DNA of 33,031 nt from Burkholderiaceae bacterium (lineage in GTDB: Bacteria; Pseudomonadota; Gammaproteobacteria; Burkholderiales; Burkholderiaceae_C). Location: NCBI GenBank assembly GCA_016790515.1, contig JAEUOY010000063.1, forward strand, positions 1-33,031, read 5' to 3'. This document shows positions 4,677 through 24,602 of this stretch, piece after piece (positions within the stretch are counted from its first letter, which is position 1; each line of letters starts with the position of its first letter). A program made the position numbers and the translations under genes. The notes under the pieces were generated by a model, which ran no database searches, was not told where the DNA came from, and was given only the letters and a program-made list of their open reading frames with translations.

Positions 4677-4679
4677 GCC

Positions 4680-5399: not shown

Positions 5400-5413
5400 G
5401 GCCGGTCGGGGGC

Positions 5414-5695
5414 TCAGGCGACGACCTGCACGCCCTTCCAGAACGCCATCCGCCCCTCGATGCTGGCTGCCGCCTCGCTCGGCTCTGGGTAGTACCAGGC
5501 CGCATCGGGGTTCAGCTCGCCCTTGACCAGCAGGCTGTGGTAGCGGCACTGGCCCTTCCAGGCGCAGGACGTGCGGTGGTTGCTGAACGCGAGGTATTCG
5601 CGCTTGACCGATGCCTCGGGAAAGTAGTGGTTGCCTTCGACCACCACGGTGTCGTCGCTCTCGGCGATGACCACGCCGTTCCAGATCGCCTTCAT
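5414..5695 (-). CDS. DUF427 domain protein
   Basis: A complete 93-aa DUF427 protein, from MKAIWNGVVIAESDDTVVVE to AFWKGVQVVA. Family landmarks are visible: NHYFP, then KREYL, the strongly conserved CAWKGQCRYHSL turn, DAAWYYPEP, and IEGRMAFW. DUF427 proteins adopt a compact beta fold; the biochemical role is unknown. The start ATG has AGGAG 8 nt upstream. It is divergent from the chemoreceptor and lies directly upstream of the PD-(D/E)XK-like gene on the same strand. Confidence 0.92.
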   Translation of the reverse strand: MKAIWNGVVIAESDDTVVVEGNHYFPEASVKREYLAFSNHRTSCAWKGQCRYHSLLVKGELNPDAAWYYPEPSEAAASIEGRMAFWKGVQVVA

Positions 5696-5759
5696 GCCTG
5701 TCGCTCCTGCGCCGCCGCTTGCGGCGTCGATTCGTCGGCAGCGATGGTACGCCGCCGCC

Positions 5760-5786
5760 TCAAGCCGGCGCCGCGGCGGCCGATAG
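5760..5786 (+). promoter_or_regulatory. Sigma-28 (FliA) promoter for the chemoreceptor
   Basis: TCAAGCCG, 11-bp spacer, GCCGATAG. The -10 matches 7 of 8 positions of the flagellar sigma consensus GCCGATAA and the spacer has exactly the consensus length. The -35 keeps the TCAAG form seen in other proteobacteria. Transcription would start near 5793, giving a leader of about 80 nt before the chemoreceptor ATG. Confidence 0.65.
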
Positions 5787-5873
5787 CCCTGGCAGCGACG
5801 GCCGGCCGACCCGGGCCGCTCCGTCGGCTGCAACCCGTGACCCGCCGCAACGGCCGCCGCCGGAGACCCGCCC

Positions 5874-7304: not shown

Positions 7305-7325
7305 GATGCGCCTTGGCACCCGGCC

Positions 7326-7341
7326 GGCGCGGCGACGCGCC
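7326..7341. terminator. GC-rich hairpin between convergent genes
   Basis: GGCGCG-GCGA-CGCGCC, followed closely by a second partial dyad (GGCCC-CA-GGGCC near 7345). It lies between the chemoreceptor stop and the stop of the convergent 64-aa gene. No T-tract follows, so a bidirectional terminator is only a possibility. Confidence 0.3.
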
Positions 7342-7365
7342 CCGGGCCCCAGGGCCGGGCCGCGC

Positions 7366-7560
7366 TCAGGCGGTCGGCGTCCGCAGCACGGTGGCGATGG
7401 CGGGCGGCGCCGAAGGCCGTTCGCGCGCCAGTTGCGCCGCCGGGTCGCCAGCGGCCAGGCCCAGCACGCCGGCCAGCACACCGAAGGTGACGACCGCGGC
7501 CAGTGCCAGCGCCAGCGCCTGCTGGGTCAGCGGGGTCTGCAGTGGGCGGGCTTGGGTCAT
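7366..7560 (-). CDS. Small single-pass membrane protein of unknown function
   Basis: A 64-aa protein with a short N-terminal cytoplasmic part (MTQARPLQTPLTQQ), one hydrophobic segment at about 14-37, and a Pro/Ala-rich tail. The ATG has AGGAG 8 nt upstream and codon third positions are GC-rich throughout, which supports a real gene. It is divergent from the transporter operon and convergent with the chemoreceptor. I do not recognise a family. Confidence 0.6.
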   Translation of the reverse strand: MTQARPLQTPLTQQALALALAAVVTFGVLAGVLGLAAGDPAAQLARERPSAPPAIATVLRTPTA

Positions 7561-7722
7561 GGCGCGAGCTCCTGTGGGCGGGGTGGTTCGATGGCTGGAC
7601 TCTAGGCCGCGAGGTCCTGCATCGCGAGCGGCTTGCGACCGGCTGCACACCCGCCGCGACGGACGGCGCCCGGCGCCGACGAACCGCATCCAGCCTGCCG
7701 CGACGGCGCACCGCGGCACTGC

Positions 7723-7917
7723 ATGGCACGCTGCTATGCTGCGGCGGCCTCGCAGCCTGCCCGTCGCGCCTTGCCCGCCCTGCCCCGCCCCTTGTCGCTG
7801 CTGCTCGCCGGGCTGGCCTGCGGTGCGGCGCCGGCCGCGCCCGGCCATCCCCATGGGCTTGGCGAGGGGGCCCTCGGGGTCGTGGACGAGGCGCGGACGC
7901 TGGCCTGGAGCCGATGA
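7723..7917 (+). pseudogene. Short exported peptide, probable truncated ZrgA/DUF2796 gene
   Basis: A 64-aa frame with a signal-type hydrophobic segment (LPRPLSLLLAGLACGAAPAA) followed by GHPHGLGEGALGVVDEARTLAW. The H-x-HG, then L-x-V-x2-D-x4-L pattern resembles the mature start of DUF2796/ZrgA zinc-uptake proteins. In the related P. aeruginosa operon PA4063-PA4066, a DUF2796 gene precedes the ATPase, permease and DUF3299 genes in this same order. Here it stops after about 24 mature residues, its TGA overlapping the ATPase ATG (ATGA). A full-length family member needs about 150 more residues, so I read it as a truncated remnant that may now act as a translationally coupled leader. The start codon is uncertain (ATG 7723 or TTG near 7768; no good SD). 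The upstream 7561-7722 stretch shows no Zur-type AT-rich box. Confidence 0.4.
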
Positions 7918-8612
7918 GCCGCGACGATGCCTTTGCCCTGTCGATGCAGGGCCTGCGCTACCGCTGGCCGGCCGCCGCGCACGACGCGATCGACCTCGAC
8001 GAACTGACGCTCATGCCCGGCGACACCGTGTTCCTGCGCGGACCCAGCGGATGCGGCAAGAGCACGTTGCTGTCGCTGGCCGCCGGCGTGCTGCTGCCCG
8101 ACGCCGGCACGGTGGCGCTGCTCGGGCAGCGCTGGGCCGGGCTCGGCGCCGGCGCCCGCGACCGCCACCGTGCCGACCACCTGGGCTACATCTTCCAGCA
8201 GTTCAACCTGCTGCCCTACCTCAGCGTGCTCGACAACGTGCGGCTGCCGCTGCGTTTCTCGCCGCGCCGCGCGCAGCGCGCCGGCCCGGGTGCCGCCGAG
8301 GCGCTGCTCGAGCGCAGCGGGCTGCCGCGCAGCCACTGGGCGCAGCCGGCCGGCCGACTGTCGGTCGGCCAGCAGCAGCGGGTGGCGGCGGCGCGCGCGC
8401 TGATCGGCGCCCCCGAGGTGGTGATCGCCGACGAGCCGACCTCGGCGCTGGACGAGCCGCTGCGCGAGGCCTTCATGGCGCTGCTGCTGAGCCACTGCGC
8501 CGAGGCCGGCAGCGCGCTGCTGTTCGTCAGCCACGACGCACGGCTGGCCGGGCGCTTCGGCCGCGTCGTCGACCTGCCGGCGATCAACCGCGCCGCCGGC
8601 ATCGAGGCATGA
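7914..8612 (+). CDS. ABC transporter ATP-binding protein (LolD/MacB-type)
   Basis: A complete 232-aa nucleotide-binding subunit: Walker A GPSGCGKST at 43-51, Q-loop IFQQFNLLPY at 93-102, signature LSVGQQQR at 149-156, Walker B VVIADEP at 169-175, and switch histidine H207 (FVSHDARL). The FQQFNLLP segment is characteristic of the LolD/MacB/FtsE class that pairs with FtsX-type permeases. It is translationally coupled on both sides by ATGA overlaps, to the short upstream frame and to the permease. By operon similarity to PA4063-PA4066 it is likely linked to zinc or another transition metal rather than to lipoprotein sorting. Confidence 0.93.
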   Translation: MSRDDAFALSMQGLRYRWPAAAHDAIDLDELTLMPGDTVFLRGPSGCGKSTLLSLAAGVLLPDAGTVALLGQRWAGLGAGARDRHRADHLGYIFQQFNLLPYLSVLDNVRLPLRFSPRRAQRAGPGAAEALLERSGLPRSHWAQPAGRLSVGQQQRVAAARALIGAPEVVIADEPTSALDEPLREAFMALLLSHCAEAGSALLFVSHDARLAGRFGRVVDLPAINRAAGIEA

Positions 8613-9871
8613 ACTACCTGCTGGTGCTGGCCGCGCGCAGCGCCTGGAACCGGCGCTTCGTGCTGGCGCTGGTGGTCGCGGCGATCGCGCTGTCGACGCT
8701 GCTGTTGCTGGGCATCGAGCGCATCCGCCAGGACCTGAGGACGAACTTCGCGCAGGCGGTGTCGGGCACCGACCTGATCGTCGGCGCGCGCACCGGGCCG
8801 GTGCAGCTGCTGCTGTACTCGGTGTTCCGCATCGGCAATGCGACGAACAACATCCGCTGGGCCAGCGCCGAGGCGATCGCGCAGCACCGCGCGGTGGCCT
8901 GGCTGGTGCCGCTGGCGCTGGGCGACAGCCACCGCGGCTTCGCGGTGCTGGGCACCACGGCGGCCTATTTCGAGCATTTCCGCCATGGCGAGAAGCAGCC
9001 GCTGGTGCTGGCGCAGGGCCGCAGGTTCGAGCAGCTGTACGACGCCGTGCTCGGCGCCGAGGTCGCGCGCCGGCTCGGCTATGCGGTCGGCCAGAGGATC
9101 GTGCTGGCGCATGGCGACGGCGCGCTGGCCGCCAACGACCATGCCGACAAGCCCTTCACCGTGGTCGGCATCCTGGCGCCCACCGGCACGCCGGTCGATC
9201 GCACGGTGCACATCAGCCTGCAGGCGATCGAGGCGCTGCACCTGGACTGGGCGGCCGGCGCGCCGCTGCCGGGCCAGGCCGTCAGCGCCGAACAGGCCGC
9301 CGCGATGGACCTGAAGCCGCGCAGCATCACCGCCGCGCTGGTCGGGCTGAAGTCCCGCGCTGCCGTGTTCGCGGTGCAGCGCGACGTCGCCGCGTTCCGC
9401 GACGAGCCGCTTCTGGCGATCCTGCCCGGCGTCGCGCTCGACGAGCTGTGGGACGTGATCGGCCTGGGCGAGCGCGGCCTGCAGGCGATGAGCGCGCTGG
9501 TCGCGGTGGTCAGCCTGGCCGGGCTGGTCGCGGTGATCCTGGCCGGGCTGAACGAGCGCCGGCGCGAGCTGGCGATCCTGCGCGCGGTCGGTGCCGGCCC
9601 GCGCCAGGTGCTGGCGCTTCTGGCGCTCGAAGGCCTGCTGGTCACCGCCTGCGGCGTGGGGCTCGGCGCGCTGGCGGCCTGGGCCGGCGTCGCGCTGGGC
9701 GGGCCCTGGGTGCAGCGGGCTTTCGGCCTGACGCTGCGGCTCGAGCCACCAGGCAGCGCAGAATGGACGCTGATGGCGCTGCTGCTGGCCGGCGGCCTGC
9801 TGGCCAGCCTGCTGCCCGGCTGGCGCGCCTACCGGCTGTCGCTCGCCGACGGCCTCTCACCCCGGACCTGA
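8609..9871 (+). CDS. FtsX/MacB-type ABC transporter permease
   Basis: A 420-aa permease: an N-terminal helix at about 20-40 (FVLALVVAAIALSTLLLLGI), a MacB_PCD-like periplasmic domain at about 45-290, and three C-terminal helices at about 295-415. Those helices contain the FtsX-core signature NERRRELAILRAVGAGPRQV. The start ATG overlaps the ATPase stop, and the reading frame, although open for kilobases upstream, only has coding character from here. With the ATPase it should form a mechanotransmission-type transporter that acts on periplasmic or membrane-bound partners. The partner is probably the DUF3299 protein encoded next. Confidence 0.92.
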   Translation: MNYLLVLAARSAWNRRFVLALVVAAIALSTLLLLGIERIRQDLRTNFAQAVSGTDLIVGARTGPVQLLLYSVFRIGNATNNIRWASAEAIAQHRAVAWLVPLALGDSHRGFAVLGTTAAYFEHFRHGEKQPLVLAQGRRFEQLYDAVLGAEVARRLGYAVGQRIVLAHGDGALAANDHADKPFTVVGILAPTGTPVDRTVHISLQAIEALHLDWAAGAPLPGQAVSAEQAAAMDLKPRSITAALVGLKSRAAVFAVQRDVAAFRDEPLLAILPGVALDELWDVIGLGERGLQAMSALVAVVSLAGLVAVILAGLNERRRELAILRAVGAGPRQVLALLALEGLLVTACGVGLGALAAWAGVALGGPWVQRAFGLTLRLEPPGSAEWTLMALLLAGGLLASLLPGWRAYRLSLADGLSPRT

Positions 9872-9874
9872 CCG

Positions 9875-10504
9875 ATGAATCGTGCCGATCGCCACCCGAC
9901 TCGCCACCCGACCCGCCGCCGCCTGCTGAAACAGGGGCTTCAGGGCGCCGCCGCTGCCGCCACGCTCATCGCCAGCCATGCCGCGGCGCAGGCCGGCGCG
10001 GCCTCGGCGCCCGCCAAACCCAGGGTCGTCGACGGCTACACCGAGCTGCGCTGGGACGACCTGGTGCCCAAGGGCTGGGACCCGATGAAGGGCCTGCAGG
10101 ACAAGGGCATGAACAACATCGCGATGCTCAACGACGGCGATCCGAAGACGATCGAGCTGATGCGTCGCCTGCGCGAGGCCTGGGACAACGCGCCGACTGA
10201 AACCGCGCTCGACGGCGCCAAGGTGCGCCTGCCCGGCTACCTGGTGCCGCTGGAGGAGACCGCCGCCGGCCACACCGAGTTTCTGCTGGTGCCGTATTTC
10301 GGCGCCTGCATCCACACGCCGCCGCCGCCAGCCAACCAGATCGTGCTGGTCGTGCCGACCAAGCCCGCCGGCGGCCTGCGCAGCATGGACACGGTGTGGG
10401 TCAACGGCGTGCTGAAGGCCACGCGCAGCAATTCGCCGATGGGCAGCAGCGGCTACCGGCTCGAATCGGCGCTGGTCGAGCGGTACAAGGCCACGCCGCG
10501 CTGA
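9875..10504 (+). CDS. DUF3299 periplasmic protein with Tat-like signal
   Basis: A 209-aa protein with a twin-arginine-type leader (RRRLLKQGLQ, then AAAAATLIAS and AAAQA). The mature domain carries the DUF3299 hallmarks: YTELRWDDLVP, then VRLPGYLVPLE, then FLLVPYFGACIHTPPPPANQ, where the single Cys and His are nearly invariant. It starts 3 bp after the permease stop, so it belongs to the same operon. In the homologous PA4063-PA4066 operon the DUF3299 gene is last and the operon responds to zinc limitation. The role is unknown; the Cys-x-His pair may bind metal (inference). Confidence 0.9.
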   Translation: MNRADRHPTRHPTRRRLLKQGLQGAAAAATLIASHAAAQAGAASAPAKPRVVDGYTELRWDDLVPKGWDPMKGLQDKGMNNIAMLNDGDPKTIELMRRLREAWDNAPTETALDGAKVRLPGYLVPLEETAAGHTEFLLVPYFGACIHTPPPPANQIVLVVPTKPAGGLRSMDTVWVNGVLKATRSNSPMGSSGYRLESALVERYKATPR

Positions 10505-10562
10505 CGATTGCGCCGGGCGAGTCGGCCGCGGTGCCCGGCGCGCCGCTACCATCACCGGCTCG

Positions 10563-11264
10563 ATGCTCGGCCCCGACCCCCCTGTCACGGCGCTCTTCTG
10601 GCAACAGCTCACCCGGCTGGGCGAGGCGCAGCTGCTGCTGCCGGCGCTGCTGCTCGCCGCCGTCTGGCTGGCGCGCCGCCCCGGCGGCGGCCGGCCGGCC
10701 GCGGTCTGGCTGGCCGCCACCGCCGCCGCCGCGCTGCTGACCACGGCGACCAAGGTCGCCTTCATCGGCTACGGCATCGGCTACGCGCCGCTGAACTTCA
10801 CCGGCATCTCCGGCCATGCGATGTTCGCCGCCGCAGTGCTGCCGCCGCTGCTGCTGCTGGCGGGCAGCGGCTGGGCTCGAGGCGGGGCTGGCCGGCGCCA
10901 CGCTGCGCTGCTGGCCGGAGGCTATGCGCTGGCGCTCGCGGTGGCGGTGTCGCGGGTGGTGGTCGGCGCTCATTCGGCGTCCGAGGTGGTCGCGGGTTCT
11001 GCGCTCGGCGCGCTGTGCAGCGGCCTTGCGCTGGCCAGTGCGCGCCTGCCGGCGGCGCGGCTGGCGCGCTGGGTGCCGGTGGCGCTGCTGGCCTGGGGCG
11101 CGGTGGGCGTCGTCGCGGCACCGCCGTCGCAGACGCACGACCTGGTCACCCGGCTGGCGCTGGCGCAGTCCGGCCGCGACAAGCCCTACCAGCGCTGGGA
11201 GATGCTGCGCGAGCACCGGCTTAACAGCCGGCGCTCGGCGTCGATCTCACTGGAGCCACGCTGA
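10563..11264 (+). CDS. PAP2-superfamily membrane phosphatase
   Basis: A 233-aa protein with five to six membrane helices. PAP2 motif 2 is SGHA (in FTGISGHAMFAAAV) and motif 3 is SRVVVGAHSASEVVAG, supplying the catalytic His and Asp/Glu-type residues. Motif 1 is degenerate: a Lys is present (ATKVAFIGYGIGY), but the usual R-P pair is not obvious. The enzyme would remove phosphate from a lipid phosphate or undecaprenyl pyrophosphate at the membrane. It lies 58 bp after DUF3299, so it may be read through from that operon. The gene end overlaps the convergent 99-aa gene by 18 bp. Confidence 0.85.
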   Translation: MLGPDPPVTALFWQQLTRLGEAQLLLPALLLAAVWLARRPGGGRPAAVWLAATAAAALLTTATKVAFIGYGIGYAPLNFTGISGHAMFAAAVLPPLLLLAGSGWARGGAGRRHAALLAGGYALALAVAVSRVVVGAHSASEVVAGSALGALCSGLALASARLPAARLARWVPVALLAWGAVGVVAAPPSQTHDLVTRLALAQSGRDKPYQRWEMLREHRLNSRRSASISLEPR

Positions 11265-11546
11265 CTCCAGCGGCGGCAGGACCAGCGGCGTCAGCTCGGC
11301 GAACCACAGCGCGGCCACCGGCAGTTCGGCCTCGGGCAGTTCGCTGACCGCCAGGCCTTGCTGCAGTTCCCAGCTCGAATCGAACCAGCCGCAGGCGCGC
11401 ACCCGGTCGCTGTCGGCGACCACGGGTGCGGCCACCTCGGCCAGCGCGACCCGGGCTGCGGCATCGCCGGCATCGCCGACATCGCTGGCGGGCAGCTGTG
11501 GCGTGCGGCGCGAAACGCGACAAGGACTGGTCGGCAGGATGGTCAT
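11247..11546 (-). CDS. Hypothetical protein, 99 aa
   Basis: A short acidic cytoplasmic protein from MTILPTSPCRVSRRTPQLPA to PPLESAWLQ, with CGWFDSSWELQQGL in the middle. The ATG has GGAGG just upstream (short 4-nt spacing), and third codon positions are GC-rich. No signal peptide, membrane segment or known motif is visible. Its last codons overlap the end of the PAP2 gene tail to tail. I do not recognise a family, but the SD and coding character make it a probable gene. Confidence 0.6.
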   Translation of the reverse strand: MTILPTSPCRVSRRTPQLPASDVGDAGDAAARVALAEVAAPVVADSDRVRACGWFDSSWELQQGLAVSELPEAELPVAALWFAELTPLVLPPLESAWLQ

Positions 11547-11634
11547 GGGGCCTCCGCAAGAGCAGGGTGTGTCGGGGTGATGCGATCGTCGGCGCGCCGG
11601 ACCGCGGCCACCATCACCCGCTGGGTGGGCCGGC

Positions 11635-11678
11635 GGGGGCCCCCGTTCTCCCCCCCTGACCCCTCCCCCAAAGGAGGG
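11635..11678. repeat. Intergenic GC-rich dyads upstream of the SRAP gene
   Basis: Two dyads sit close together: the 12-bp palindrome CGGGGGCCCCCG at 11634-11645, and CCCTCC-CCCAAA-GGAGGG at 11661-11678. This kind of C-run/G-run element is common between genes in Rubrivivax-like genomes. It could terminate leftward or rightward transcription, but no T-tract is present. A wider 8-bp inverted repeat (GGGTGATG at 11575, CATCACCC at 11612) lies just before it. Confidence 0.45.
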
Positions 11679-11710
11679 CCGGGCCGGCTGTGTCACCATC
11701 ACGCCCGACC

Positions 11711-12430
11711 ATGTGTGGACGCTACGTCATCGCCTACGACCCGCAGACGCTGGTCAGCGGCTTCAGCCTGACCCGGATCCAGCCCTTCGACCGGCGCTGG
11801 AACGTCGCGCCTCAATCGGCCGTGCCGGTGGTCTACGAAACCCGCGACGGCGAGCGCGTGGCCGAGCTGATGCGCTGGGGCCTGGTACCGCACTGGGCGA
11901 AAGACCCGGCGATCGGCGCGAAGCTCAACAACGCCCGCAGCGAGGGCATGGCCGACAAGCCCTCGTTCCGCCAGGCGGTGCGCCGGCGCCGCTGCATCCT
12001 GCCGACCAGCGGCTTCTACGAATGGCAGCCGGTGGCCGGATCCGCCGGCAAGCCGGTCAAGCAGCCGTACTACATCAGCCCGACCGGCGCGCCGTTCTTC
12101 GCGATGGCCGGGCTGTTCGAGGCCTGGCGGCCGCCCGTCGGCCCAGGTGAAGCCGAACCAGGAGAGTGGGTGCTCACCTGCTGCGTCATCACGACGGCCG
12201 CCAATGCGCTGATGGCACCGATCCACGACCGCATGCCGGTGATGCTGGCGCCCGAGCACTGGGCCGCCTGGCTGGCCCGCGGCAACACCGATGCGGCGTC
12301 GCTGCCGCCGCTGATGCAGGGCCTGCCCGAGGCGGCGATGCAGGCCTGGCCGGTCGCGCGCACGGTCGGCCGCTCCAGTGCCGAAGGCCCGCAGCTGATC
12401 GAACCGCTGGCCGCCGCCGGCAGCGTCTGA
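11711..12430 (+). CDS. yedK: SRAP-family abasic-site DNA-crosslinking protein (YedK/HMCES)
   Basis: A 239-aa SOS-response-associated protein that covalently shields abasic sites in single-stranded DNA through its N-terminal cysteine. The diagnostic residues are present: MCGRY with Cys2, NVAP (N31), NNARSE (N74, R76), GFYEW (E104) and IHDRMPV (H172). The start is fixed by chemistry, because Met removal must expose Cys2; the upstream in-frame extension is therefore wrong. There is no clear SD, so translation initiation may be weak. The length is normal for bacterial members. It is preceded by the GC-rich dyads and stands as a single transcription unit; no LexA box was recognised upstream. Confidence 0.95.
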   Translation: MCGRYVIAYDPQTLVSGFSLTRIQPFDRRWNVAPQSAVPVVYETRDGERVAELMRWGLVPHWAKDPAIGAKLNNARSEGMADKPSFRQAVRRRRCILPTSGFYEWQPVAGSAGKPVKQPYYISPTGAPFFAMAGLFEAWRPPVGPGEAEPGEWVLTCCVITTAANALMAPIHDRMPVMLAPEHWAAWLARGNTDAASLPPLMQGLPEAAMQAWPVARTVGRSSAEGPQLIEPLAAAGSV

Positions 12431-16810: not shown

Positions 16811-17785
16811 ATGCCCTGTGCGAATGTCCCCCGCCGCCGCCTGCTCGCGCTGGCCGCCCTGGCCGCGGCCGCCCCGTCGTTGCGGGCCCAGGCGGCCTTC
16901 CCGAACCGTCCGATCACGCTGATCGTGCCCTGGCCGCCCGGCGGCTCGACCGACCGCCACCTGCGCACGCTGGCCGAGATCGCCGGCAAGCACCTCGGCC
17001 AGCAGGTGATCATCGCCAACCAGCCCGGCGGCGGCGGCACCACCGGGCCGGGCAACATGGCGCTGCAGGCCAAGCCCGACGGCTACACGATCGCCCAGTT
17101 CCCGATGGGCATGCTGCGCATTCCGCACATGCAGAAGACGCTGTGGAACCCGCTGACCGACTTCAGCTTCATCATCGGCGTCACCGGCTACACCTTCGGC
17201 TTCGTCGTCAAGGCCGATTCGCCGTACAAGACCTTCAACGACTACCTCGACGCCGCGCGCAAGCAGCCCGGCAAGATCGACTTCGGCTCGACCGGCGCCG
17301 GCACCAGCCCGCACCTGCTGATCGAGGAAGTGGCCGACGCCGCCAAGGTCGAGCTCAACCACATCCCGTTCAAGGGCAACGCCGACCTGATGCAGGCGCT
17401 GCTCGGCGGCCACGTGATGGCCGCCAGCGACGCCACCGGCTGGGACAAGTTCGTCGACAGCGGCCAGATGCGGCTGCTGGTGACCTTCGGCGAGAACCGG
17501 GTCAAGCGCTACCCCAACGTGCCCACCGCCAAGGAGCTGGGTCTCGGCGTGGTCAGCAATTCGCCCTACGGCCTGGCCGGCCCCAAGGGCATGGACCCGG
17601 CAGTGGTCAAGGCGCTGCACGACGCGTTCAGGAAGGCGATGGACGACCCGAAGCACCTGGAAGTGCTGGAGCAGCTGAACCAGCCGGTCTGGTACCGCAG
17701 CAGTGCCGACTACGCCGCCTGGGTGCGCACGACCTTCGGCAAGGAAAAGGCGCTGATCGAGAAGCTGGGGCTGGCCGGCAAGTGA
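16811..17785 (+). CDS. Bug/TctC-family periplasmic substrate-binding protein
   Basis: A 324-aa receptor of the tripartite tricarboxylate transporter family. It has a PRRRLLALAA leader cleaved near LRAQA, then family landmarks: RPITLIVPWPPGGSTD (the carboxylate-binding first loop), NQPGGGGTTGP, KPDGYTI, FGSTGAGTSPHL, IPFKGNADLMQALLGGHV, and AKELGLGVVSNSPYG. These bind small carboxylates or other organic anions. No tctA or tctB membrane genes are present, which is usual for the expanded Bug families of Burkholderiales. It precedes the Mo-hydroxylase genes but is separated from them by a candidate terminator. Confidence 0.95.
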   Translation: MPCANVPRRRLLALAALAAAAPSLRAQAAFPNRPITLIVPWPPGGSTDRHLRTLAEIAGKHLGQQVIIANQPGGGGTTGPGNMALQAKPDGYTIAQFPMGMLRIPHMQKTLWNPLTDFSFIIGVTGYTFGFVVKADSPYKTFNDYLDAARKQPGKIDFGSTGAGTSPHLLIEEVADAAKVELNHIPFKGNADLMQALLGGHVMAASDATGWDKFVDSGQMRLLVTFGENRVKRYPNVPTAKELGLGVVSNSPYGLAGPKGMDPAVVKALHDAFRKAMDDPKHLEVLEQLNQPVWYRSSADYAAWVRTTFGKEKALIEKLGLAGK

Positions 17786-17800
17786 TGCGCTGCGGATAAC

Positions 17801-17816
17801 CCCGCCGCCGGGCGGG
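17801..17816 (+). terminator. Hairpin downstream of the TctC gene
   Basis: CCCGCC-GCCG-GGCGGG, followed by CTGTTGCAAATT. It lies 15 bp past the TctC stop and 77 bp before the Mo-hydroxylase operon. It may end TctC transcription; the T content after the stem is modest. Confidence 0.4.
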
Positions 17817-17892
17817 CTGTTGCAAATTCCGATGCCGCCGCGGGGCCGCCATCGCATGATGCCGGCCACCGCTCGAGCACAGGAGTCCGGCG

Positions 17893-18351
17893 ATGGCCAC
17901 CCTCAACGTCAACGGCAGCGTGCGCAGCCACGACGCCGAACCCGACACCCCGCTGCTGTGGGTGCTGCGCGAGCAGCTCGGCCTGACCGGCACCAAGTAC
18001 GGCTGCGGCGTCGCGCAGTGCGGCGCCTGCACCGTGCACATCGACGGCGTCGCCGTCCGCTCCTGCGCGCGGCCGGTGTCGACGGTCGGGGCGAACGAGA
18101 AGATCACGACGATCGAGGGCCTGTCGCCCGACGGCAGGCACCCGCTGCAGCAGGCCTGGGTCGCGCTGGACGTGCCGCAATGCGGCTTCTGCCAGTCGGG
18201 CATGCTGATGACCGCGGCCGCGCTGATGAAGGCCAAGCCGCGGCCCAGCGACCAGGACGTTCGCGAGGCGATGACCAACATCTGCCGCTGCGGCACCTAC
18301 AACCGCGTCAAGGCGGCGATCCTGATGGCCAGCGCGGCCGCCAAGGGCTGA
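17893..18351 (+). CDS. iorA: Mo-hydroxylase [2Fe-2S] subunit (isoquinoline 1-oxidoreductase alpha-like)
   Basis: A 152-aa small subunit of the xanthine-oxidase family. The plant-type [2Fe-2S] cluster is bound by C38, C43, C46 and C58 ([18 protein letters not shown]), and the second cluster by C97, C100, C131 and C133 ([20 protein letters not shown]). It passes electrons from the molybdenum centre of its large partner to an acceptor. AGGAG lies just upstream of the ATG. It is the first gene of a six-gene same-strand group ending with soxA, and the large subunit starts 12 bp downstream. There is no separate FAD subunit, so a cytochrome is the likely acceptor. The symbol reflects family similarity; the substrate is not known. 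Confidence 0.92.
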
Positions 18352-18363
18352 GGGGGGCTGGCG

Positions 18364-20556
18364 ATGAACACCGTCACCGACCGTCGCCCGCAGTCGCCGT
18401 CGCGCCGCCGCTTCCTCGCCACCAGCAGCGCCAGCGCCGGCGGGCTGATGCTGGGCTTTCACCTGCCGCCGGCGCGCAGCCAGGCCGCGCCGCCCGAGAT
18501 CAATGCCTGGGTGTTGATCCGGCCCGACGAGACCGTGGTGATCCGCATCGCCCGCAGCGAGATGGGCCAGGGCACGCTGACCGGCCTGGCCCAGCTGGTC
18601 GCCGAGGAGCTGCAGTGCGACTGGGCCCGCGTCAGCACCGAATACCCGACGCCGGGGCAGAACCTGGCGCGCAACCGCGCCTGGGGCAACTTCTCGACCG
18701 GCGGCAGCCGCGGCGTGCGCGAATCGCACGACTACGTGCGCAAGGGCGGCGCCGCGGCGCGGATGATGCTGGTTCAGGCCGCCGCCGACGGCTGGGGCGT
18801 GCCGGCGGCCGACTGCCGGGTCGACAAGGGCGTGATCAGCCATCCCGCCTCGGGCCGGCGCACCACCTACGGCGCGGTGGCCCCCGCCGCGGCCAAGCTG
18901 GCGCCGCCGGCCGAGGTGCCGCTGAAGGACCCGAAGACCTGGACCATCGCCGGCCGGCCGCTGCCGCGGCTGGACACCGTCGCCAAGACCACCGGCGCCC
19001 AGGTCTACGGCATCGACCTGCAGCTGCCCGGGATGCTGAACGCGGCGATCCGCGACTGCCCCGTCGTCGGCGGCAGGCTCAGGCGCTTCGACGCCGCGGC
19101 GGTGATGGCGATGCCCGGCGTCAGGAAGGTCGTGCCGGTCGGCGATACCGCGGTGGTGGTGGTCGCCGACACCTGGTGGCGCGCGAAGAAGGCGCTCGAC
19201 GCGCTGCCCATCGAGTGGGACGAAGGCCCGAACGCGAAGCTGAACAGCGCCGACATCGCCGCGCTGCTGAAGGCCGGGCTCGACGCCCCCGAGGCGGTGG
19301 TCGGCCACCAGGTCGGCCAGGCGCGCGAGGCGCTGGCCGGCGCGGCGCGCACGATCGAGGCGGTCTACGCCTTCCCGTACCAGAACCACGCGACGATGGA
19401 GGTGATGAACGCCACCGCGCGCTGGACGCCCGAGCGCTGCGAGGTCTGGACCCCGACGCAGAACGGCGAGGCGGCGCTGGCCGCCACCGCCGAGGCCGCC
19501 GGCCTGCCGGCGGCGCAGTGCGAGGTCTACAAGATCCACCTCGGCGGCGGCTTCGGCCGCCGCGGCATGAGCGACTGGGTGCGCCAGGCGGTGGCGGTGG
19601 CCAGGGCGCTGCCCGGCACGCCGGTCAAGCTGATCTGGAGCCGCGAAGAGGACATGCAGCACGGCTTCTACCACCCGGTCACGCAGTGCAAGCTGCGCGC
19701 CGGCATCGACGCCCAGGGCAAGCTGAGCGCGCTGCACATGCGCATCTCGGGGCAGTCGATCCTGGCCGCGCTGTTCCCGCAGAACGTCCAGAACGGGCGC
19801 GACCCGGTGGTCTTCCAGGGCCTGAACGCCGGCGGCACCGAGGGTGCGCTGGGCTATGCGATCCCGAACCTGCTGATCGACCACGCGATGCGCAACCCGC
19901 CGGTGCGGCCGGGCTTCTGGCGCGGCGTCAACCTGAACCAGAACGCGGTCTACCTGGAGTGCTTCCTCGACGAGATCGCCCATGCGACCCGGCAGGACCC
20001 GCTGGCGCTGCGGCGCCAGCTGCTGGCCAGTTCGCCCAGGCACCTGGCGGTGCTCGAAGCGGTGGCCCGGCGTGCCGGCTGGGGCACGCCGGCGGCGCCG
20101 GTCAACGGCCAGGCGGTGCACCGCGGGCTGGCGCAGATCATGGGTTTCGGCAGCTATGTCGCGGCCTGCGCCGAGGTCTCGGTCAGCCCGGCGGGCGAGC
20201 TGACGATCCACCGCATCGTCGCCGCCACCGACTGCGGTCACGCGGTGAACCCGCAGCAGATCGAGGCCCAGGTCGAGGGCTCGTTCGCCTACGGCCTGTC
20301 GGCCGCGCTGCTGGGCGAGTGCACGGTCGAGAACGGCCGCATCGTGCAGACCAACTTCGACAGCTACCCGGTGCTGCAGCTCGCCCAGATGCCCAAGGTC
20401 GAGACGATCGTGATGCCCTCGGGCGGCTTCTGGGGCGGCGTCGGCGAGCCGACGATCGCGGTCGCCGCGCCGGCGGTGCTGAACGCGATCTTTGCCGCCA
20501 CCGGCCAGCGCATCCGCAGGCTGCCGATCGGGAACCAGTCGCTGAAACGGGCATGA
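18364..20556 (+). CDS. iorB: Molybdopterin-binding Mo-hydroxylase large subunit (isoquinoline 1-oxidoreductase beta / aldehyde dehydrogenase-like)
   Basis: A 730-aa catalytic subunit with a Tat leader (SRRRFLATSSASAGGLMLG), so the enzyme is periplasmic. Landmarks include RSEMGQGTLTGLAQLVAEEL near 62-82, an aldehyde-oxidase a/b hammerhead segment near 215-300, GGGFGRRG at about 394-401 contacting the cofactor, GFWRGVNLNQNAVYLECFLD, and the C-terminal GGVGEPTIAVAAPA, where E695 is the expected catalytic glutamate. Relatives hydroxylate N-heterocycles or oxidise aldehydes. The Tat leader carries the co-folded small subunit along. The stop is 7 bp before soxX, so the Sox cytochrome is a candidate electron acceptor. 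Substrate unknown. Confidence 0.92.
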   Translation: MNTVTDRRPQSPSRRRFLATSSASAGGLMLGFHLPPARSQAAPPEINAWVLIRPDETVVIRIARSEMGQGTLTGLAQLVAEELQCDWARVSTEYPTPGQNLARNRAWGNFSTGGSRGVRESHDYVRKGGAAARMMLVQAAADGWGVPAADCRVDKGVISHPASGRRTTYGAVAPAAAKLAPPAEVPLKDPKTWTIAGRPLPRLDTVAKTTGAQVYGIDLQLPGMLNAAIRDCPVVGGRLRRFDAAAVMAMPGVRKVVPVGDTAVVVVADTWWRAKKALDALPIEWDEGPNAKLNSADIAALLKAGLDAPEAVVGHQVGQAREALAGAARTIEAVYAFPYQNHATMEVMNATARWTPERCEVWTPTQNGEAALAATAEAAGLPAAQCEVYKIHLGGGFGRRGMSDWVRQAVAVARALPGTPVKLIWSREEDMQHGFYHPVTQCKLRAGIDAQGKLSALHMRISGQSILAALFPQNVQNGRDPVVFQGLNAGGTEGALGYAIPNLLIDHAMRNPPVRPGFWRGVNLNQNAVYLECFLDEIAHATRQDPLALRRQLLASSPRHLAVLEAVARRAGWGTPAAPVNGQAVHRGLAQIMGFGSYVAACAEVSVSPAGELTIHRIVAATDCGHAVNPQQIEAQVEGSFAYGLSAALLGECTVENGRIVQTNFDSYPVLQLAQMPKVETIVMPSGGFWGGVGEPTIAVAAPAVLNAIFAATGQRIRRLPIGNQSLKRA

Positions 20557-20563
20557 AGCAGGC

Positions 20564-20947
20564 ATGAGGCGGATGGCCGCGGCGGTGATGGCGCCGGTGC
20601 TGATCGGCACCGCTGCGGCCGCGGCGGCCGGCGACCCGGCGCGCGGCGAAGCGATCGCCACCAGCCGCTCGCTGGGCCTGTGCACGCTGTGCCACGCGCT
20701 GCCCGGCCAGCCGCCGGCGCTGCAGGGCAACCTCGGCCCGCCGCTGGCCGGCATCGGCGCCCGGCTCGATGCCCAGGCGCTGCGGGCGCGGCTGCTGACC
20801 CCGGAACGGTTCAACCCCGACACCCTGATGCCGGCCTACGGCCGCAGCGAAGGGCTGCAGCGCGTCGCCGCCGCGCAACGCGGCCGCCCGCTGCTGACGC
20901 CGGCGCAGATCGACGACGTGGTGGCCTACCTCGCAGGCCTGCGATGA
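20564..20947 (+). CDS. soxX: SoxX-type monohaem cytochrome c
   Basis: A 127-aa periplasmic cytochrome: signal peptide (AAAVMAPVLIGTAAAAAAG), haem motif CTLCH (C40, C43, H44), and axial Met in TLMPAYG (M89). The C-terminal part (RFNPDTLMPAYGRSEGLQRV, then RPLLTPAQIDDVVAYLAGLR) is typical of SoxX. With SoxA it forms SoxAX, which couples a sulfur substrate to the SoxY cysteine and takes up two electrons. The ATG lies 7 bp after the Mo-hydroxylase stop, and the TGA overlaps the soxY ATG. An alternative start lies 9 bp further in. A generic dehydrogenase cytochrome is possible, but soxYZA next to it favours SoxX. Confidence 0.88.
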   Translation: MRRMAAAVMAPVLIGTAAAAAAGDPARGEAIATSRSLGLCTLCHALPGQPPALQGNLGPPLAGIGARLDAQALRARLLTPERFNPDTLMPAYGRSEGLQRVAAAQRGRPLLTPAQIDDVVAYLAGLR

Positions 20948-21414
20948 GCGGCGCGCCGTCCGCCCGCGCCGGCCGCCGCCTGCTGCTGCAGCGTGCCGGC
21001 GGGCTGTGGCTGGCGCTGCAGTGGCGGCCCGCCGCCGCGGCGTCGGGCCCCGAATCGCTGCAGGCCGTGGTGCAGCGCTGGGCTGGCGGCCGGCCGCTGC
21101 GCGAGGGCCGGATCGGATTCGAGGTCGCGCCGCTGGTCGAGAACGGCAACGCGGTGCCGGTCTCGGTGACGGTCGACAGCCCGATGACCGCCGCCGACCA
21201 TGTGCAGGAGATCGTGATCTTCAACGAGCGCAACCCGCAGCGCGAGGTCGCCCGCTTCACGCTGACACCGGCCTGCGGGCGGGCGCAGGTCGACGCCCGC
21301 ATCCGGCTGGCCACCTCGCAGCGCCTGGTCGCGCTGGCGCGGCTGAGCGACGGCAGCCAGTGGGCGCGCTACGTCGACGTGATCGTGACGCTGGCCGCCT
21401 GCGTGGAGGCTTGA
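20944..21414 (+). CDS. soxY: SoxY sulfur-carrier protein with atypical C-terminus
   Basis: A 156-aa Tat-exported protein (GRRLLLQRAGGLWLALQW). The mature Ig-like fold carries SoxY markers: IGFEVAPLVENGNAVPVSVT, then MTAADHVQEIVIFNERNPQR, then ATSQRLVALARLSDGSQW. SoxY holds sulfur intermediates on a cysteine in a C-terminal GGCGG swinging arm. Here the end is VIVTLAACVEA: Cys153 is kept, but both glycine pairs are replaced and one residue is added after the cysteine. Another cysteine sits at 111 (TPACGRAQ). The loss of glycines should stiffen the arm, so partner enzymes may differ from the standard set. The start overlaps the soxX stop. Confidence 0.87.
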   Translation: MSGAPSARAGRRLLLQRAGGLWLALQWRPAAAASGPESLQAVVQRWAGGRPLREGRIGFEVAPLVENGNAVPVSVTVDSPMTAADHVQEIVIFNERNPQREVARFTLTPACGRAQVDARIRLATSQRLVALARLSDGSQWARYVDVIVTLAACVEA

Positions 21415-21418
21415 CGCG

Positions 21419-21754
21419 ATGGCCGCCGACGCCCGGGTCCGCACGCTGATCCACGGCACCGAGTCGCTGCAGCGCGGCGTGCCGGGCGAGCTCCGCGTCA
21501 CGCTCGGCCACCCGATGGAGAGCGGCCAGCGCACCGACGGCTACGGCAAGCTGGTGCCGCGCAACATCTGCACCCGCTTCGAATGCCGGCTCGACGGCGC
21601 GCTGGTCTTCGCCGCCGACCTGTACCCGGCGATCGCCGCCAACCCGATGCTGGCGTTCTGGCTGCGCGCCGACGGCCCGGGCACGCTGGTCTTCGAGTGG
21701 ACCGGCGACCAGGGCTTCGAGCACCGCGAGACGCGGGCGATCCGGCCGGCATGA
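21419..21754 (+). CDS. soxZ: SoxZ, partner of SoxY
   Basis: A 111-aa protein without its own signal, exported by hitchhiking with Tat-exported SoxY. Family landmarks: GELRVTLGHPMESGQRTDGY (H-P-M-E-x-G-x-R), then NICTRFECRLDGALVFAADL, and AANPMLAFWLRADGPGTLVF. SoxZ forms the stable SoxYZ heterodimer. The gene starts 4 bp after soxY and its TGA overlaps the soxA ATG. Length is normal. Confidence 0.93.
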   Translation: MAADARVRTLIHGTESLQRGVPGELRVTLGHPMESGQRTDGYGKLVPRNICTRFECRLDGALVFAADLYPAIAANPMLAFWLRADGPGTLVFEWTGDQGFEHRETRAIRPA

Positions 21755-22530
21755 CGGCACCGGCGCGGTGGACGCAGCGGGTGCTGCTGCTGGCCAGCGC
21801 CTTGCCGGCGCTGGCCGCGGCCCAGCCCGATGCGCGCCGCTCGGGCCTCGACTTCATGAGCCCGGCGCTGCAGGCGCTGCAGCGCGACGACCGCCAGAAC
21901 CCGGCGATGCTGTTCCTGCCCGACGGCGAGGCACTGTGGCGCAGCCCGTCCGGCGCGGCGGGCCGGTCCTGCGCCGACTGCCACGGCGACGCCGCGCGCT
22001 CGATGGCCGGCGTCGCGGCGCGCTACCCGGCCTGGGATGCCGCCAGCGGCCAGGCGCTGAACCTCACCGGCCGCGTCAATGCCTGCCGCCAGCGCCACCA
22101 GCAGGCCGCGCCACTGGCCGCCGAATCGGCCGACGCGCTGGCGCTGACGGCCTGGCTGGGCCGGCTGTCGCGCGGCCTGCCGCTGGCCCCGCCCGACGAT
22201 GACCGGCTGGCGCCGCTGCGCGCCCGGGGCCAGGCGCTGTGGCAGCAGCGGCTGGGCCAGCTGAACCTCGCGTGTACGCACTGCCACGACCAGCGCGCCG
22301 GCCAGCGCCTGGGCGGCGCGGTGATCCCGCAGGCCCATGCCACCGGCTATCCGGTCTATCGCCTCGAATGGCAGGGCCTGGGCAGCCTGCAGCGCCGGCT
22401 GCGCGGCTGCGTCGCCGGCGTGCGCGCCGAGCCGTATGCGCCCGATGCCGTCGAATGGCTGGCGCTCGAGGCCTTCCTGGCCCGGCGCGCCGCCGGCATG
22501 GCGGTGGAGACGCCGGCCGTGCGGCCTTGA
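21751..22530 (+). CDS. soxA: SoxA dihaem cytochrome c
   Basis: A 259-aa periplasmic cytochrome with a signal peptide (VLLLASALPALAAA). Two haem motifs are present, CADCH (C74, C77, H78) and CTHCH (C175, C178, H179). The cysteines that serve as distal haem ligands in SoxA are C112 (VNACRQRHQQAAPLAAES) and C220 (RLRGCVAGVRAEPY). So this is the dihaem form with an intact active-site cysteine. SoxAX attaches the sulfur substrate to SoxY. In most clusters soxB follows; here the next gene is a convergent NDH-2 and no SoxB is encoded in the window. Confidence 0.93.
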   Translation: MTAPARWTQRVLLLASALPALAAAQPDARRSGLDFMSPALQALQRDDRQNPAMLFLPDGEALWRSPSGAAGRSCADCHGDAARSMAGVAARYPAWDAASGQALNLTGRVNACRQRHQQAAPLAAESADALALTAWLGRLSRGLPLAPPDDDRLAPLRARGQALWQQRLGQLNLACTHCHDQRAGQRLGGAVIPQAHATGYPVYRLEWQGLGSLQRRLRGCVAGVRAEPYAPDAVEWLALEAFLARRAAGMAVETPAVRP

Positions 22531-22548
22531 AACCGGCGGTCGCTCACA

Positions 22549-22627
22549 AGGAAACGCCGGGCCGTCCCAAGTTTCCTTGACCCCCGCGGGGGGCGGGCTG
22601 GGCGCAGCCCGGCCCTGGGGGCGCTCA
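22549..22627. repeat. 79-bp intergenic repeat, copy A
   Basis: Matches 25154-25232 in inverted orientation at 78 of 79 positions (one A/G difference at about 22569). Read in the direction of the NDH-2 gene it begins with that gene's TGA stop. It then contains three consecutive dyads: GGGCTG-CGCC-CAGCCC, the palindrome CCCCCGCGGGGG, and AGGAAAC with a 15-nt loop and GTTTCCT. It fills the gap between the convergent soxA and NDH-2 genes and probably acts as a terminator or mRNA 3'-end structure. Confidence 0.9.
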
Positions 22628-23980
22628 GTGCAGCTTGACCCGCGGCTCGGTGCTGCGCGTCAGCAGCCGCGAGGCCGAGCCCAGCGTGGTCTTCCACCAG
22701 CCGTGCAGCGCGACCTGGTGCATCTTGTACAGCGACAGGTACATCGTCCGCGCGAACAGGCCTTCGACCCACAGGTTGCCGCCGACCAGCGCGCCCATCA
22801 GGTTGCCCACCGTGGAGTACTCGCCCAGCGACACCAGCGAGCCGAAGTCGCGGTAGCGCCAGGGCTCGAGCGGCTGGCCGCGCAGCCGGCGGCGCAGCTG
22901 CTTCGCCAGGTGCGTGGCCTGCTGGTGCGCCGCCTGCGCGCGCGGCGGCACGTTGCCGCCGTGGCCCAGCCAGGGCGCCGCGGCGCAGTCGCCCAGCGCG
23001 AAGATCGCCGCATCGCGGGTGCTCTGCAGCGTCGGTTCGACGACCAGCTGGTTCAGCTTGTTGGTCTCCAGCCCGGCCAGGTCGCGCAGGAAGTCGGGCG
23101 CCTTGACGCCGGCAGCCCAGACCACCAGCTCGGCCGGCACCAGCTCGCCGTCGGCCAGCTGAACGCCTTCGGCGGTGACCGCGGTGACCCGCGAGCCGGT
23201 GCGCACCTGCACGCCCAGGCCGCGCAGCAGCGCGGTGGCCGCGCCGGCGATGCGCTCGGGCAGCGCCGGCAGGATGCGCGGGCCGGCCTCGATCAGGTTC
23301 AGCCGGATGTCGCGCTCGGGGTCGATGCGATCGAGGTTGTACGACACCAGCGTGCGCGTCGCCTTGTGCAGCTCGGCGGACAGTTCCACGCCGGTGGCAC
23401 CGGCGCCGATGATCGCCACCTGCAGCTGGCGCGGCGACAGCGGTTCGGACTGCATGTGCGCGCGCAGGCAGGCATTGACCAGCCGGCGATGGAAGCGCTG
23501 GGCCTGCGACGGCGTCTCCAGCGCGATCGCGTGCTCGGCGACGCCGGGCGTGCCGAAGTCGTTGGTGTTGCTGCCGACCGCGATCACCAGCGTGTCGTAG
23601 CCGCGGGTGTAGGCGGGGCTGACGGTCTCGCCGTCCTCGTCGCGCACCGGCGCCACGTGCACCAGGCGCTTGTCGCGGTCCAGGCCGGTCATCTCCCCGA
23701 CCCGGTAGCGGAAGCCGTGCCAGTGCGACTGCGCCAGGTAATCGGTGGCGTGAACGTGCAGGTCCATGCTGCCGGCGGCGATCTCGTGCAGGTGCGGCTT
23801 CCAGAAGTGCGAGCGCGCGCGCTCGATCAGCGTGATGTGGGCCAGCCCCTTGCGGCCCAGCGTGTCGCCGAGCCGGGTGGCCAGCTCCAGCCCGCCGGCG
23901 CCGCCGCCGACGATCACGATGCGGTGCAGGCCGGGGCCCGGACCCGGGTCGGCGGCGTGCGATGCGGAGGACTTGGCCAT
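22625..23980 (-). CDS. ndh: Type II NADH dehydrogenase (NDH-2)
   Basis: A 451-aa flavoprotein that oxidises NADH and reduces quinone at the inner membrane without pumping protons. The FAD dinucleotide motif is IVIVGGGAGGLELATRLGD at about 21-39, and the NADH motif is VAIIGAGATGVELSAEL. The second FAD motif is FALGDCAAAPW, followed by PPRAQAAHQQATHLAKQLRR, the quinone-side segment of NDH-2. The C-terminus (GNLMGALVGGNLWVEGLFAR, then MYLSLYKMHQVALHGWW) is the amphipathic membrane anchor. The stop codon is the first three bases of repeat A. The neighbouring leftward GDT1 gene is 46 bp upstream, so the two may be co-transcribed. Confidence 0.93.
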   Translation of the reverse strand: MAKSSASHAADPGPGPGLHRIVIVGGGAGGLELATRLGDTLGRKGLAHITLIERARSHFWKPHLHEIAAGSMDLHVHATDYLAQSHWHGFRYRVGEMTGLDRDKRLVHVAPVRDEDGETVSPAYTRGYDTLVIAVGSNTNDFGTPGVAEHAIALETPSQAQRFHRRLVNACLRAHMQSEPLSPRQLQVAIIGAGATGVELSAELHKATRTLVSYNLDRIDPERDIRLNLIEAGPRILPALPERIAGAATALLRGLGVQVRTGSRVTAVTAEGVQLADGELVPAELVVWAAGVKAPDFLRDLAGLETNKLNQLVVEPTLQSTRDAAIFALGDCAAAPWLGHGGNVPPRAQAAHQQATHLAKQLRRRLRGQPLEPWRYRDFGSLVSLGEYSTVGNLMGALVGGNLWVEGLFARTMYLSLYKMHQVALHGWWKTTLGSASRLLTRSTEPRVKLH

Positions 23981-24026: not shown

Positions 24027-24602
24027 TTACAGCAGGCTGCCGACGTTGGCCAGCGTCAACACGCCCAGCACCGCGAACACCGCGGCGGCGATGACATGGA
24101 CCAGCCGCATCGACATCCGCCGGCTGATCTGGTCGCCCAGCAGCACCGCCGGCACGTTGGCGACCAGCATGCCCAGCGTCGTGCCGGCCACCACCTCCAG
24201 CAGCTCGGGGTAGCGAGCGGCCAGCGCGACCGTGGCGATCTGCGTCTTGTCGCCCATCTCGGCGAGGAAGAAGGCGACCGCCGTGGTGCCGAACACGCCG
24301 AGCCGCGGCGCGCCGGCCGGTGCGGCGGCGTCGTCGAGGCGGTCGGGGACCAGCATCCAGACCGCCATCGCCAGGAACGAGCCGCCGATCACCCAGCGCA
24401 GCAGCTGCGGTCCCATCAGCATGGCGATCCAGCCGCCCAGCCAGCCGGCCGCGGCATGGTTGGACAGCGTGGCCACCAGGATGCCGGCGATGATCGGCAG
24501 CGGCCTGCGAAAGTGCGCGGCCAGCAGCAGCGCCAGCAGCTGCGTCTTGTCGCCCATCTCACCCATGGCGACGAGGCCGGTCGAGACAATCAGGGCTTCC
24601 AT
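24027..24602 (-). CDS. TMEM165/GDT1 (UPF0016) family cation exporter, MneA-like
   Basis: A 191-aa, six-helix membrane protein with the two family-defining motifs GEMGDKTQ (E15, D18) and AEMGDKTQ (E115, D118), exactly 100 residues apart. This is the internal duplication that forms the two-fold transporter core. Bacterial members export manganese (Vibrio MneA). The two motifs share 21 identical bases in DNA (24240-24260 and 24540-24560). No SD is visible before the ATG and no yybP-ykoY manganese riboswitch was found upstream. Divergent from the thioesterase gene. Confidence 0.92.
   Translation of the reverse strand: MEALIVSTGLVAMGEMGDKTQLLALLLAAHFRRPLPIIAGILVATLSNHAAAGWLGGWIAMLMGPQLLRWVIGGSFLAMAVWMLVPDRLDDAAAPAGAPRLGVFGTTAVAFFLAEMGDKTQIATVALAARYPELLEVVAGTTLGMLVANVPAVLLGDQISRRMSMRLVHVIAAAVFAVLGVLTLANVGSLL

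Follow-up and report, generated by a model that had tools for sequence, protein, structure and literature searches.

The window analysed here is a stretch of 33,031 nucleotides (contig JAEUOY010000063.1, assembly GCA_016790515.1) from a member of the Burkholderiaceae. Between positions 17893 and 22530 of its forward strand, six open reading frames (ORFs), separated by gaps of 12, 7, -4, 4 and -4 bp, form a putative operon in which the genes for a [2Fe-2S] subunit and a molybdopterin (Mo) subunit are followed by soxX, a relative of soxY, soxZ and soxA. The ORF calls reproduced exactly the genes, coordinates, strand and gaps given in a preliminary description of this DNA, and no soxB adjoins soxA, as had been stated there. 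It is nearly certain that the partnership between the Mo enzyme and the SoxYZ carrier is real, widely conserved and not the canonical Sox system. The six genes are the following:

17893..18351, + strand: [2Fe-2S] small subunit of a xanthine-oxidase-family enzyme (Fer2 and Fer2_2 above cut-off)
18364..20556, + strand: molybdopterin subunit of the xanthine oxidase family, exported by the twin-arginine translocation (Tat) pathway (MoCoBD_1/2; best PDB match 8gy3_C)
20564..20947, + strand: SoxX-like monohaem cytochrome c (TIGR04485, 65.6 bits, cut-off 61; CxxCH and Met)
20944..21414, + strand: SoxY-related AACIE-arm carrier subunit (TIGR04487, 188 bits, cut-off 172; arm AACVEA, Cys153, Glu155)
21419..21754, + strand: SoxZ-like carrier subunit (Pfam SoxZ, 73 bits, cut-off 25)
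21751..22530, + strand: SoxA-like dihaem cytochrome c (TIGR04484, 202 bits, cut-off 110; Cys220)

Family scans disclosed neither SoxC nor SoxD among these six genes (the genome itself was not searched for SoxCD) and no flavin adenine dinucleotide (FAD) subunit in the operon. A dedicated cytochrome subunit of the Mo enzyme is also missing from the window, its place being taken by SoxXYZA. A sigma-70 and terminator scan of positions 17500-23000 detected neither a promoter-like site nor a terminator on the operon strand, a result that is weak either way.

The conservation of this gene order was assessed on two samples. In the first one, named genomes were scanned with the SoxY protein, using peptide patterns that excluded the C-terminal arm, and the best 80 of 124 relatives were retained; in the second one, 299 genomes of the window's family were searched with TIGR04487 at E 1e-30, which matched 49 of them (39 above cut-off). 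The full one-strand order FeS-Mo-(FccAB)-soxX-soxY-soxZ-soxA, where FccAB stands for the optional genes of a flavocytochrome c sulfide dehydrogenase (FCSD), was found in 63/80 loci of the first sample, whose 17 remaining loci comprise 16 that run off the contig end and a single true exception, L047 (Methylobacterium sp. WSM2598), with sox genes but without the Mo pair. The second sample showed the full order in 40 of its 48 loci (all besides the window), together with three loci cut by the contig end (L134, L150, L165) and five real exceptions (L131, L138, L159, L162, L164). Overall, the order recurs in 103 of 128 loci (116 different ones, since 12 are common to both samples), the other 25 being either contig-cut (19) or real exceptions (6); because of this recurrence, the operon is not a chance arrangement. 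Judged by the names in the record titles, its carriers belong to the Alpha-, Beta- and Gammaproteobacteria, Steroidobacter among them. A conserved Mo-soxXYZA order, which the preliminary description had proposed to look for across genomes, is therefore present, and its idea of one module joining a Mo hydroxylase to SoxXYZA stands, often in genomes without detected SoxB.

The analysis of the carrier revealed that it departs from the one of the thiosulfate pathway. The window SoxY passes the NCBI model TIGR04487 ("SoxY-related AACIE arm protein") and fails the GGCGG model TIGR04488 (75 bits, cut-off 125), carrying AACVEA instead of the GGCGG arm of the Sox thiosulfate pathway; this difference is not noted in the preliminary description, which labels the gene soxY. 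The window SoxZ lies below the true-SoxZ cut-off (TIGR04490, 63.6 bits vs 76), and neither protein belongs to the quinoprotein-associated fused carriers of TIGR04557 (48 and 31.6 bits, cut-off 140), the two genes being separate. The Cys-x-Glu motif of the window arm (C153, E155) is shared: among AACIE-type SoxY, counted once per different locus and including L047, L138, L162 and the contig-cut loci, C-x-[ED] occurs within the last 22 residues in 119/119 sequences (118 E, 1 D). In seven loci of a second, convergent arrangement (see below), the arm is C-x-D in all cases, ending [ST]ACFD, and in 17/17 soxB-linked SoxY it is GGCGG. Two Roseomonas-type soxY-soxZ-soxB sets with FccAB (L110:5841-10064 and L111:6737-11399) harbor a GGCGG SoxY about 50% identical to AACIE SoxY, nearer than the other soxB-linked SoxY found.

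The catalytic residues are kept as well. In the residue-conservation alignments, which still hold duplicates of the 12 common loci, the arm cysteine is present in 129/129 SoxY rows and the glutamate in 128/129; the CxxCH motif of SoxX in 122-123 of 123 rows and its methionine in 120/123; both CxxCH motifs of SoxA in 122/122 and the cysteine at the ligand position in 120/122. The window SoxX and SoxA pass the curated thiosulfate models TIGR04485 and TIGR04484, and Cys220 of the latter aligns with the GC cysteine of SoxA 1h31, the haem ligand. All the CxxCH motifs for haem binding and the ligand cysteine of SoxXA are thus in place in the window. A Cys-ligated SoxA haem and the attachment of thiosulfate to SoxYZ through its cysteine are described in PMC4423706, where a dispute about the role of the ligand cysteine is also mentioned.

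A SoxA tree, which is a quick tree with long branches flagged and the careful search unfinished, placed 112 AACIE-type rows on one side of a branch (95) and likewise the seven convergent rows (99), and split both together from 15 soxB-linked rows (94). The possibility that the operon is a degraded canonical sox operon that has lost soxB was rejected on the basis of this split and of the clean separation of the arm motifs.

Concerning the enzyme, the MoCoBD domains and the small subunit with two [2Fe-2S] domains assign it to the xanthine oxidase family, whose members are known to act on heteroaromatic rings and aldehydes and to hydroxylate carbon, not sulfur. The best PDB match of the Mo subunit, both by sequence (E 9e-77) and by fold, is 8gy3_C; the AlphaFold 2 model (predicted local distance difference test score 74.7) matches the fold of 8gy3 and confirms the fold only. 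This nearest solved relative is the Gluconobacter membrane-bound aldehyde dehydrogenase. The twin-arginine signal at the start of the subunit (R14-R15) is invariant in 14/14 aligned sequences, and so is E695 in VGEP, the catalytic glutamate of the family, whose counterparts in the alignment are the GEP glutamate of 8gy3 and the VGE glutamate of 5y6q. An identity as carbon monoxide dehydrogenase was rejected, the respective models scoring 61 and 93 bits against cut-offs of 991 and 950.

A reverse search, with the Mo protein against the same 299 genomes at E 1e-150, matched 110 of them. Copies of at least 69% identity are present in 51 genomes, which include 46 of the 49 AACIE-SoxY genomes (not G123, G132 and G233). 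As for the five further ones, G079 and G205 hold the whole cluster, with a SoxY missed by the profile search; in G159 and G209 the surroundings of the Mo copy are free of Sox genes, the G209 copy bearing an in-frame stop; and the locus of G270 is cut by the contig end. A sister Mo group (55-61% identity, seven loci) shows FeS-Mo genes convergent with soxX-soxY-soxZ-soxA, an arrangement found via Mo and not via SoxY. A third arrangement occurs in the alphaproteobacterial metagenome-assembled genome G023, where SoxYZ fusions with GACAQ/GACAD arms lie beside FeS-Mo; its contig (L218:5216-16166) contains two sets of Mo-FeS and SoxYZ fusion, of which only one is followed by SoxX-SoxA. The Mo tree unites the seven convergent sequences in a single clade (1.0), next to a group of 106 (0.75) that holds the AACIE-linked sequences and also L175 and L187, both without Sox genes near. 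The distances in the Mo tree correlate with those of SoxA and SoxY (r 0.76 and 0.80 over 99 loci; 0.55 and 0.61 over the 92 without the convergent ones); such agreement alone is no functional evidence, because species kinship yields the same. In two loci (L088:2360-7802 and L091:2310-7786), tandem FeS-Mo pairs, two in each, precede FccB-soxX, the second Mo being only about 50% identical to that of the window.

The genome of the window is represented by an assembly of 5.0 Mb in 176 contigs, 82% complete. In this incomplete assembly, neither soxB (0 matches) nor a GGCGG SoxY was found; the combination that the preliminary description had named as a refutation, a complete canonical set elsewhere together with a gene order not conserved in relatives, was not observed. 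Its three SoxY-domain matches are the gene in the window and a pair of SoxYZ-like fusions carried by contig C171 (L012:8937-13290), both passing TIGR04557, between which lie a homologue (below cut-off) of the SoxH-like quinoprotein-relay zinc hydrolase and a beta-propeller protein. The C171 carriers represent a second, different Sox-derived carrier system of this genome; the 19 kb read around them yielded neither SoxX nor SoxA. One FCSD flavoprotein is encoded on contig C83, adjoined by a small FccA-like cytochrome. A survey of 49 genomes of the first sample (50 of the 80 loci submitted; completeness not given) detected soxB in 33 of them and not in 16; 13 of these 16 also lack a detected GGCGG-type SoxY, while G001, G011 and G033 have one (30 of 32 matches were read, the other two lying in G001 and G011).

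The module is associated with FCSD. In the family sample, FCSD was found in 47/49 AACIE genomes vs 155/250 others (Fisher p 5e-7, kinship uncorrected). In the first sample, the flavoprotein gene is located between Mo and soxX in 20/80 loci, and in four more it immediately precedes soxX where the contig ends; it lies nearby on the other strand in 1/80 (L026) and, in the second sample, in 3/48 (L119, L123, L124). Taken together, FccB is inside or beside the operon in 28/128 loci, with an FccA-like cytochrome within 1.5 kb in 21 of the 28. The copy of L053 has FCSD domains, and the short ORF ahead of it contains a CxxCH motif.

These data may best be explained by a Sox-like branch in which the Mo enzyme replaces SoxB/SoxCD and works with SoxYZ on a sulfur-bearing organic substrate, an interpretation to which we give an even chance of being correct. 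SoxYZ, with its bulkier acidic arm (A-C-x-E/D for G-G-C-G-G), would be the dedicated periplasmic carrier, and SoxXA would oxidatively couple the arm cysteine with a sulfur compound, for which an organic thiol, or a thiol that oxidation has exposed, is the most likely candidate. The Tat-exported Mo enzyme, in the slot that SoxB and SoxCD occupy in the thiosulfate pathway, would then oxidise with water the carbon of the carried or freed organic part. Since there is no FAD subunit, the electrons would leave by way of both [2Fe-2S] clusters and reach cytochromes c of the periplasm. The leftover sulfide or persulfide would be taken by FCSD, whose genes some relatives have within or next to the operon and the window genome has at another place. 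Given the aldehyde dehydrogenase 8gy3 as closest solved structure, an aldehyde intermediate is possible. A more specific version, which we hold to be less likely than not, is a third class of SoxYZ pathway besides those with SoxB and SoxCD: the Mo enzyme would act directly on a substrate bound to the protein arm through a disulfide, placing oxygen derived from water on a carbon of the organosulfur cargo, and the A-C-x-[E/D] arm would serve as a key fitted to the Mo enzyme. The preliminary description had likewise assigned the hydroxylase and SoxYZ to one pathway: the conserved order upholds the partnership, and the organosulfur or heterocyclic substrate proposed there is a candidate.

The pair of Mo enzyme and SoxYZ, rather than the cytochromes, looks like the core of the system, because both persist at loci whose SoxXA is missing or defective. 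In L131 (7100-8180), soxX and soxA are mere remnants and the FeS, Mo, soxY and soxZ genes are open; L164 has Mo and SoxYZ and no soxX or soxA within its 16 kb; and the first cluster of L218 lacks intact SoxXA alongside. SoxXA is encoded elsewhere in the genomes of L164 (G233, at L179) and of L218 (G023, in the second cluster).

Several observations weigh against an organosulfur branch. In the family sample, soxB is present in 36/49 AACIE genomes vs 128/250 others (p 0.005); being commoner, not rarer, in AACIE genomes, it suggests that the products of the module may feed a canonical Sox pathway. FCSD does not single out the Mo-AACIE module, because it also stands beside 5 of 19 canonical soxB regions (L094, L096, L100, L110, L111). 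AACIE-type sox genes occur without a neighbouring Mo gene in L047, in L138 (Mo absent from the 5.6 kb upstream, where a RecJ-like gene lies) and in L162 (soxX and Mo both absent from the 1.7 kb available upstream), and L159 is without soxA. Conversely, related Mo genes without Sox genes nearby are found in L172 (69%), L173 (70%, with an in-frame stop), L175 (64%) and L187 (54%). Finally, the known action of the family on heteroaromatic rings and aldehydes and the match to the aldehyde dehydrogenase 8gy3 would suit a plain aldehyde enzyme too.

The alternative that survives best, though we consider it rather unlikely, is an inorganic branch, in which the Mo enzyme would substitute for SoxCD as a sulfane dehydrogenase acting on SoxYZ-bound sulfur derived from sulfide or thiosulfate, with sulfate release by some other route or, in genomes encoding it, by SoxB. 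The intact catalytic residues of SoxXA, the FCSD found in 47/49 family genomes and the soxB detected in 36/49 of them (and in 33/49 of the first sample) are in agreement with it. However, GGCGG SoxY was not seen in 13 of the 16 soxB-less genomes, and the enzymes of the xanthine oxidase family hydroxylate carbon. Moreover, a study on Bradyrhizobium diazoefficiens reports two soxY genes, of which only soxY1 of locus I is required for thiosulfate oxidation (PMC5748708). We infer that its soxY2 is probably of the AACIE type, because Bradyrhizobium sp. ARR65 has AACIE, GGCGG and fused SoxY.

An aldehyde or one-carbon relay, where SoxYZ would carry an aldehyde or shield the enzyme and sulfur would not be the substrate, appears improbable. 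It would suit the similarity to the Gluconobacter enzyme and the two fused carriers on C171 with the below-cut-off SoxH-like homologue between them, and a 2024 survey proposes a role in carbon metabolism for divergent SoxYZ located beside pyrroloquinoline quinone (PQQ) alcohol, methanol and formate dehydrogenases (PMC11237559). Yet the 19 kb read around the C171 carriers yielded no SoxX or SoxA, whereas the window keeps SoxXA with its catalytic residues, and the linkage with FCSD speaks against a relay in which sulfur has no part.

It is very improbable that the SoxX/SoxA haems are simply an electron sink for the hydroxylase with SoxYZ as a passenger, an option that the preliminary description had left beside its main one and that the absence of a FAD subunit and the position of soxX directly after the Mo gene might suggest. 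This option is weakened by the three loci that retain SoxYZ next to Mo without an intact SoxXA (though G233 and G023 carry SoxXA elsewhere), by the invariant arm cysteine, and by the FccA-like cytochrome of 21 of the 28 FccB loci, which would give these loci an electron acceptor of their own. The least probable explanation, that SoxXA, SoxYZ and FCSD serve to renew the sulfido ligand of Mo on the periplasmic side, would account for Mo and SoxYZ remaining together where SoxXA is missing, but other exported enzymes of the family are known to function without SoxYZ, and no Sox genes accompany the related Mo genes of L175, L180, L184, L185, L186 and L187 (47-64% identity).

The genes flanking the operon were also inspected. 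A periplasmic solute-binding protein of the TctC (Bug) family (16811..17785, + strand; Pfam TctC, 256 bits) ends 107 bp upstream; its membership in the module is uncertain, and a homologue is in the same place in only 2 of the 116 different loci (L016 and L015, the latter being the same locus as L143). Downstream, a Pyr_redox_2 oxidoreductase (22625-23980, - strand; labelled NDH-2 in the preliminary description) and a GDT1-type cation transporter (24027-24602, - strand) converge on the operon; GDT1 homologues follow soxA also in L014, L015, L016, L017 and L019. In seven Roseomonas-type loci (L049, at 1404-12240, L044, L055, L059, L067, L069 and L079), an SsuA/NMT1-type ATP-binding cassette system is encoded upstream on the same strand, together with a PuuE-like deacetylase and an amidase that resembles allophanate hydrolase and scores above the cut-off of that family. 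Six of these loci also have, after soxA and on the other strand, an exporter-type gene labelled TauE-like from its sequence; the single TauE-like gene tested had no ncbifam match. The Reyranella locus has a TAXI binding protein and the window TctC; solute-binding-protein genes of three different kinds near the operon in three lineages count in favour of the proposed branch. The attempt to deduce the substrate from the neighbours was abandoned, as they differ between lineages and name no common compound; thiazoles, thiophenes, thiohydantoins and methanethiol are purely hypothetical candidates.

The six-gene order is present in many soil and freshwater bacteria, 49 of the 299 sampled genomes of the window's family carrying the operon's SoxY. 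Its pairing of an exported Mo enzyme, of a kind acting on carbon compounds, with a modified Sox carrier suggests an uncharacterised organosulfur oxidation outside the cell membrane. Because the window SoxA and SoxX pass the curated thiosulfate models, surveys based on counts of soxA or soxX would list such bacteria among the thiosulfate oxidisers in spite of the different arm and partner; if the more specific version given above is true, a widespread dissimilatory organosulfur route would now be miscounted in this way in genome surveys. Identifying the substrate could bring to light a section of the organic sulfur cycle that has been overlooked, and a protein-arm carrier used in a new way, together with a xanthine-oxidase-family enzyme. 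A search of the open-access PubMed Central papers, as far as their text was seen, retrieved no description of the Mo-AACIE module or of an AACIE SoxY with a Mo hydroxylase, and the word AACIE is absent from the papers searched. The 2024 survey proposes that divergent SoxYZ, some of them beside PQQ dehydrogenases, serve carbon or organosulfur metabolism, and states that SoxY sequences without the GGC motif were removed (PMC11237559); for this reason, the AACIE type would be missing from its tree.

When compared with known systems, the window Mo enzyme shares with the 8gy3 aldehyde dehydrogenase the full-length similarity, the Tat signal, the separate [2Fe-2S] subunit and the lack of an FAD subunit, and differs from it in having SoxXYZA instead of a dedicated cytochrome subunit; enzymes of the isoquinoline 1-oxidoreductase type are a further likeness. 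TIGR04487, above whose cut-off the window protein lies, is a family that gives a name to a protein. The fused SoxYZ beside PQQ dehydrogenases (TIGR04557; SoxYZ-S2/S4 of PMC11237559) resemble the window in tying a SoxYZ homologue to a periplasmic carbon oxidoreductase, but they are fused, have SGGCS arms and a SoxH-like hydrolase nearby, and show no SoxXA in the 19 kb read. In SAR324, according to the passages seen, a flavocytochrome c gene is flanked by SoxYZ-like genes with no further sox subunits recovered (PMC4782131), which is similar to the window module in combining FCSD with divergent SoxYZ and different in that those passages name no Mo partner alongside. Finally, the Sox thiosulfate system and the window operon both have SoxX, SoxA, the haem motifs, and SoxY and SoxZ with a C-terminal cysteine, and FCSD (SoxEF-like) is sometimes found near the former as it is near the latter; the window operon, however, is without SoxB and SoxCD, bears AACxE in place of GGCGG, and has a Mo enzyme added.

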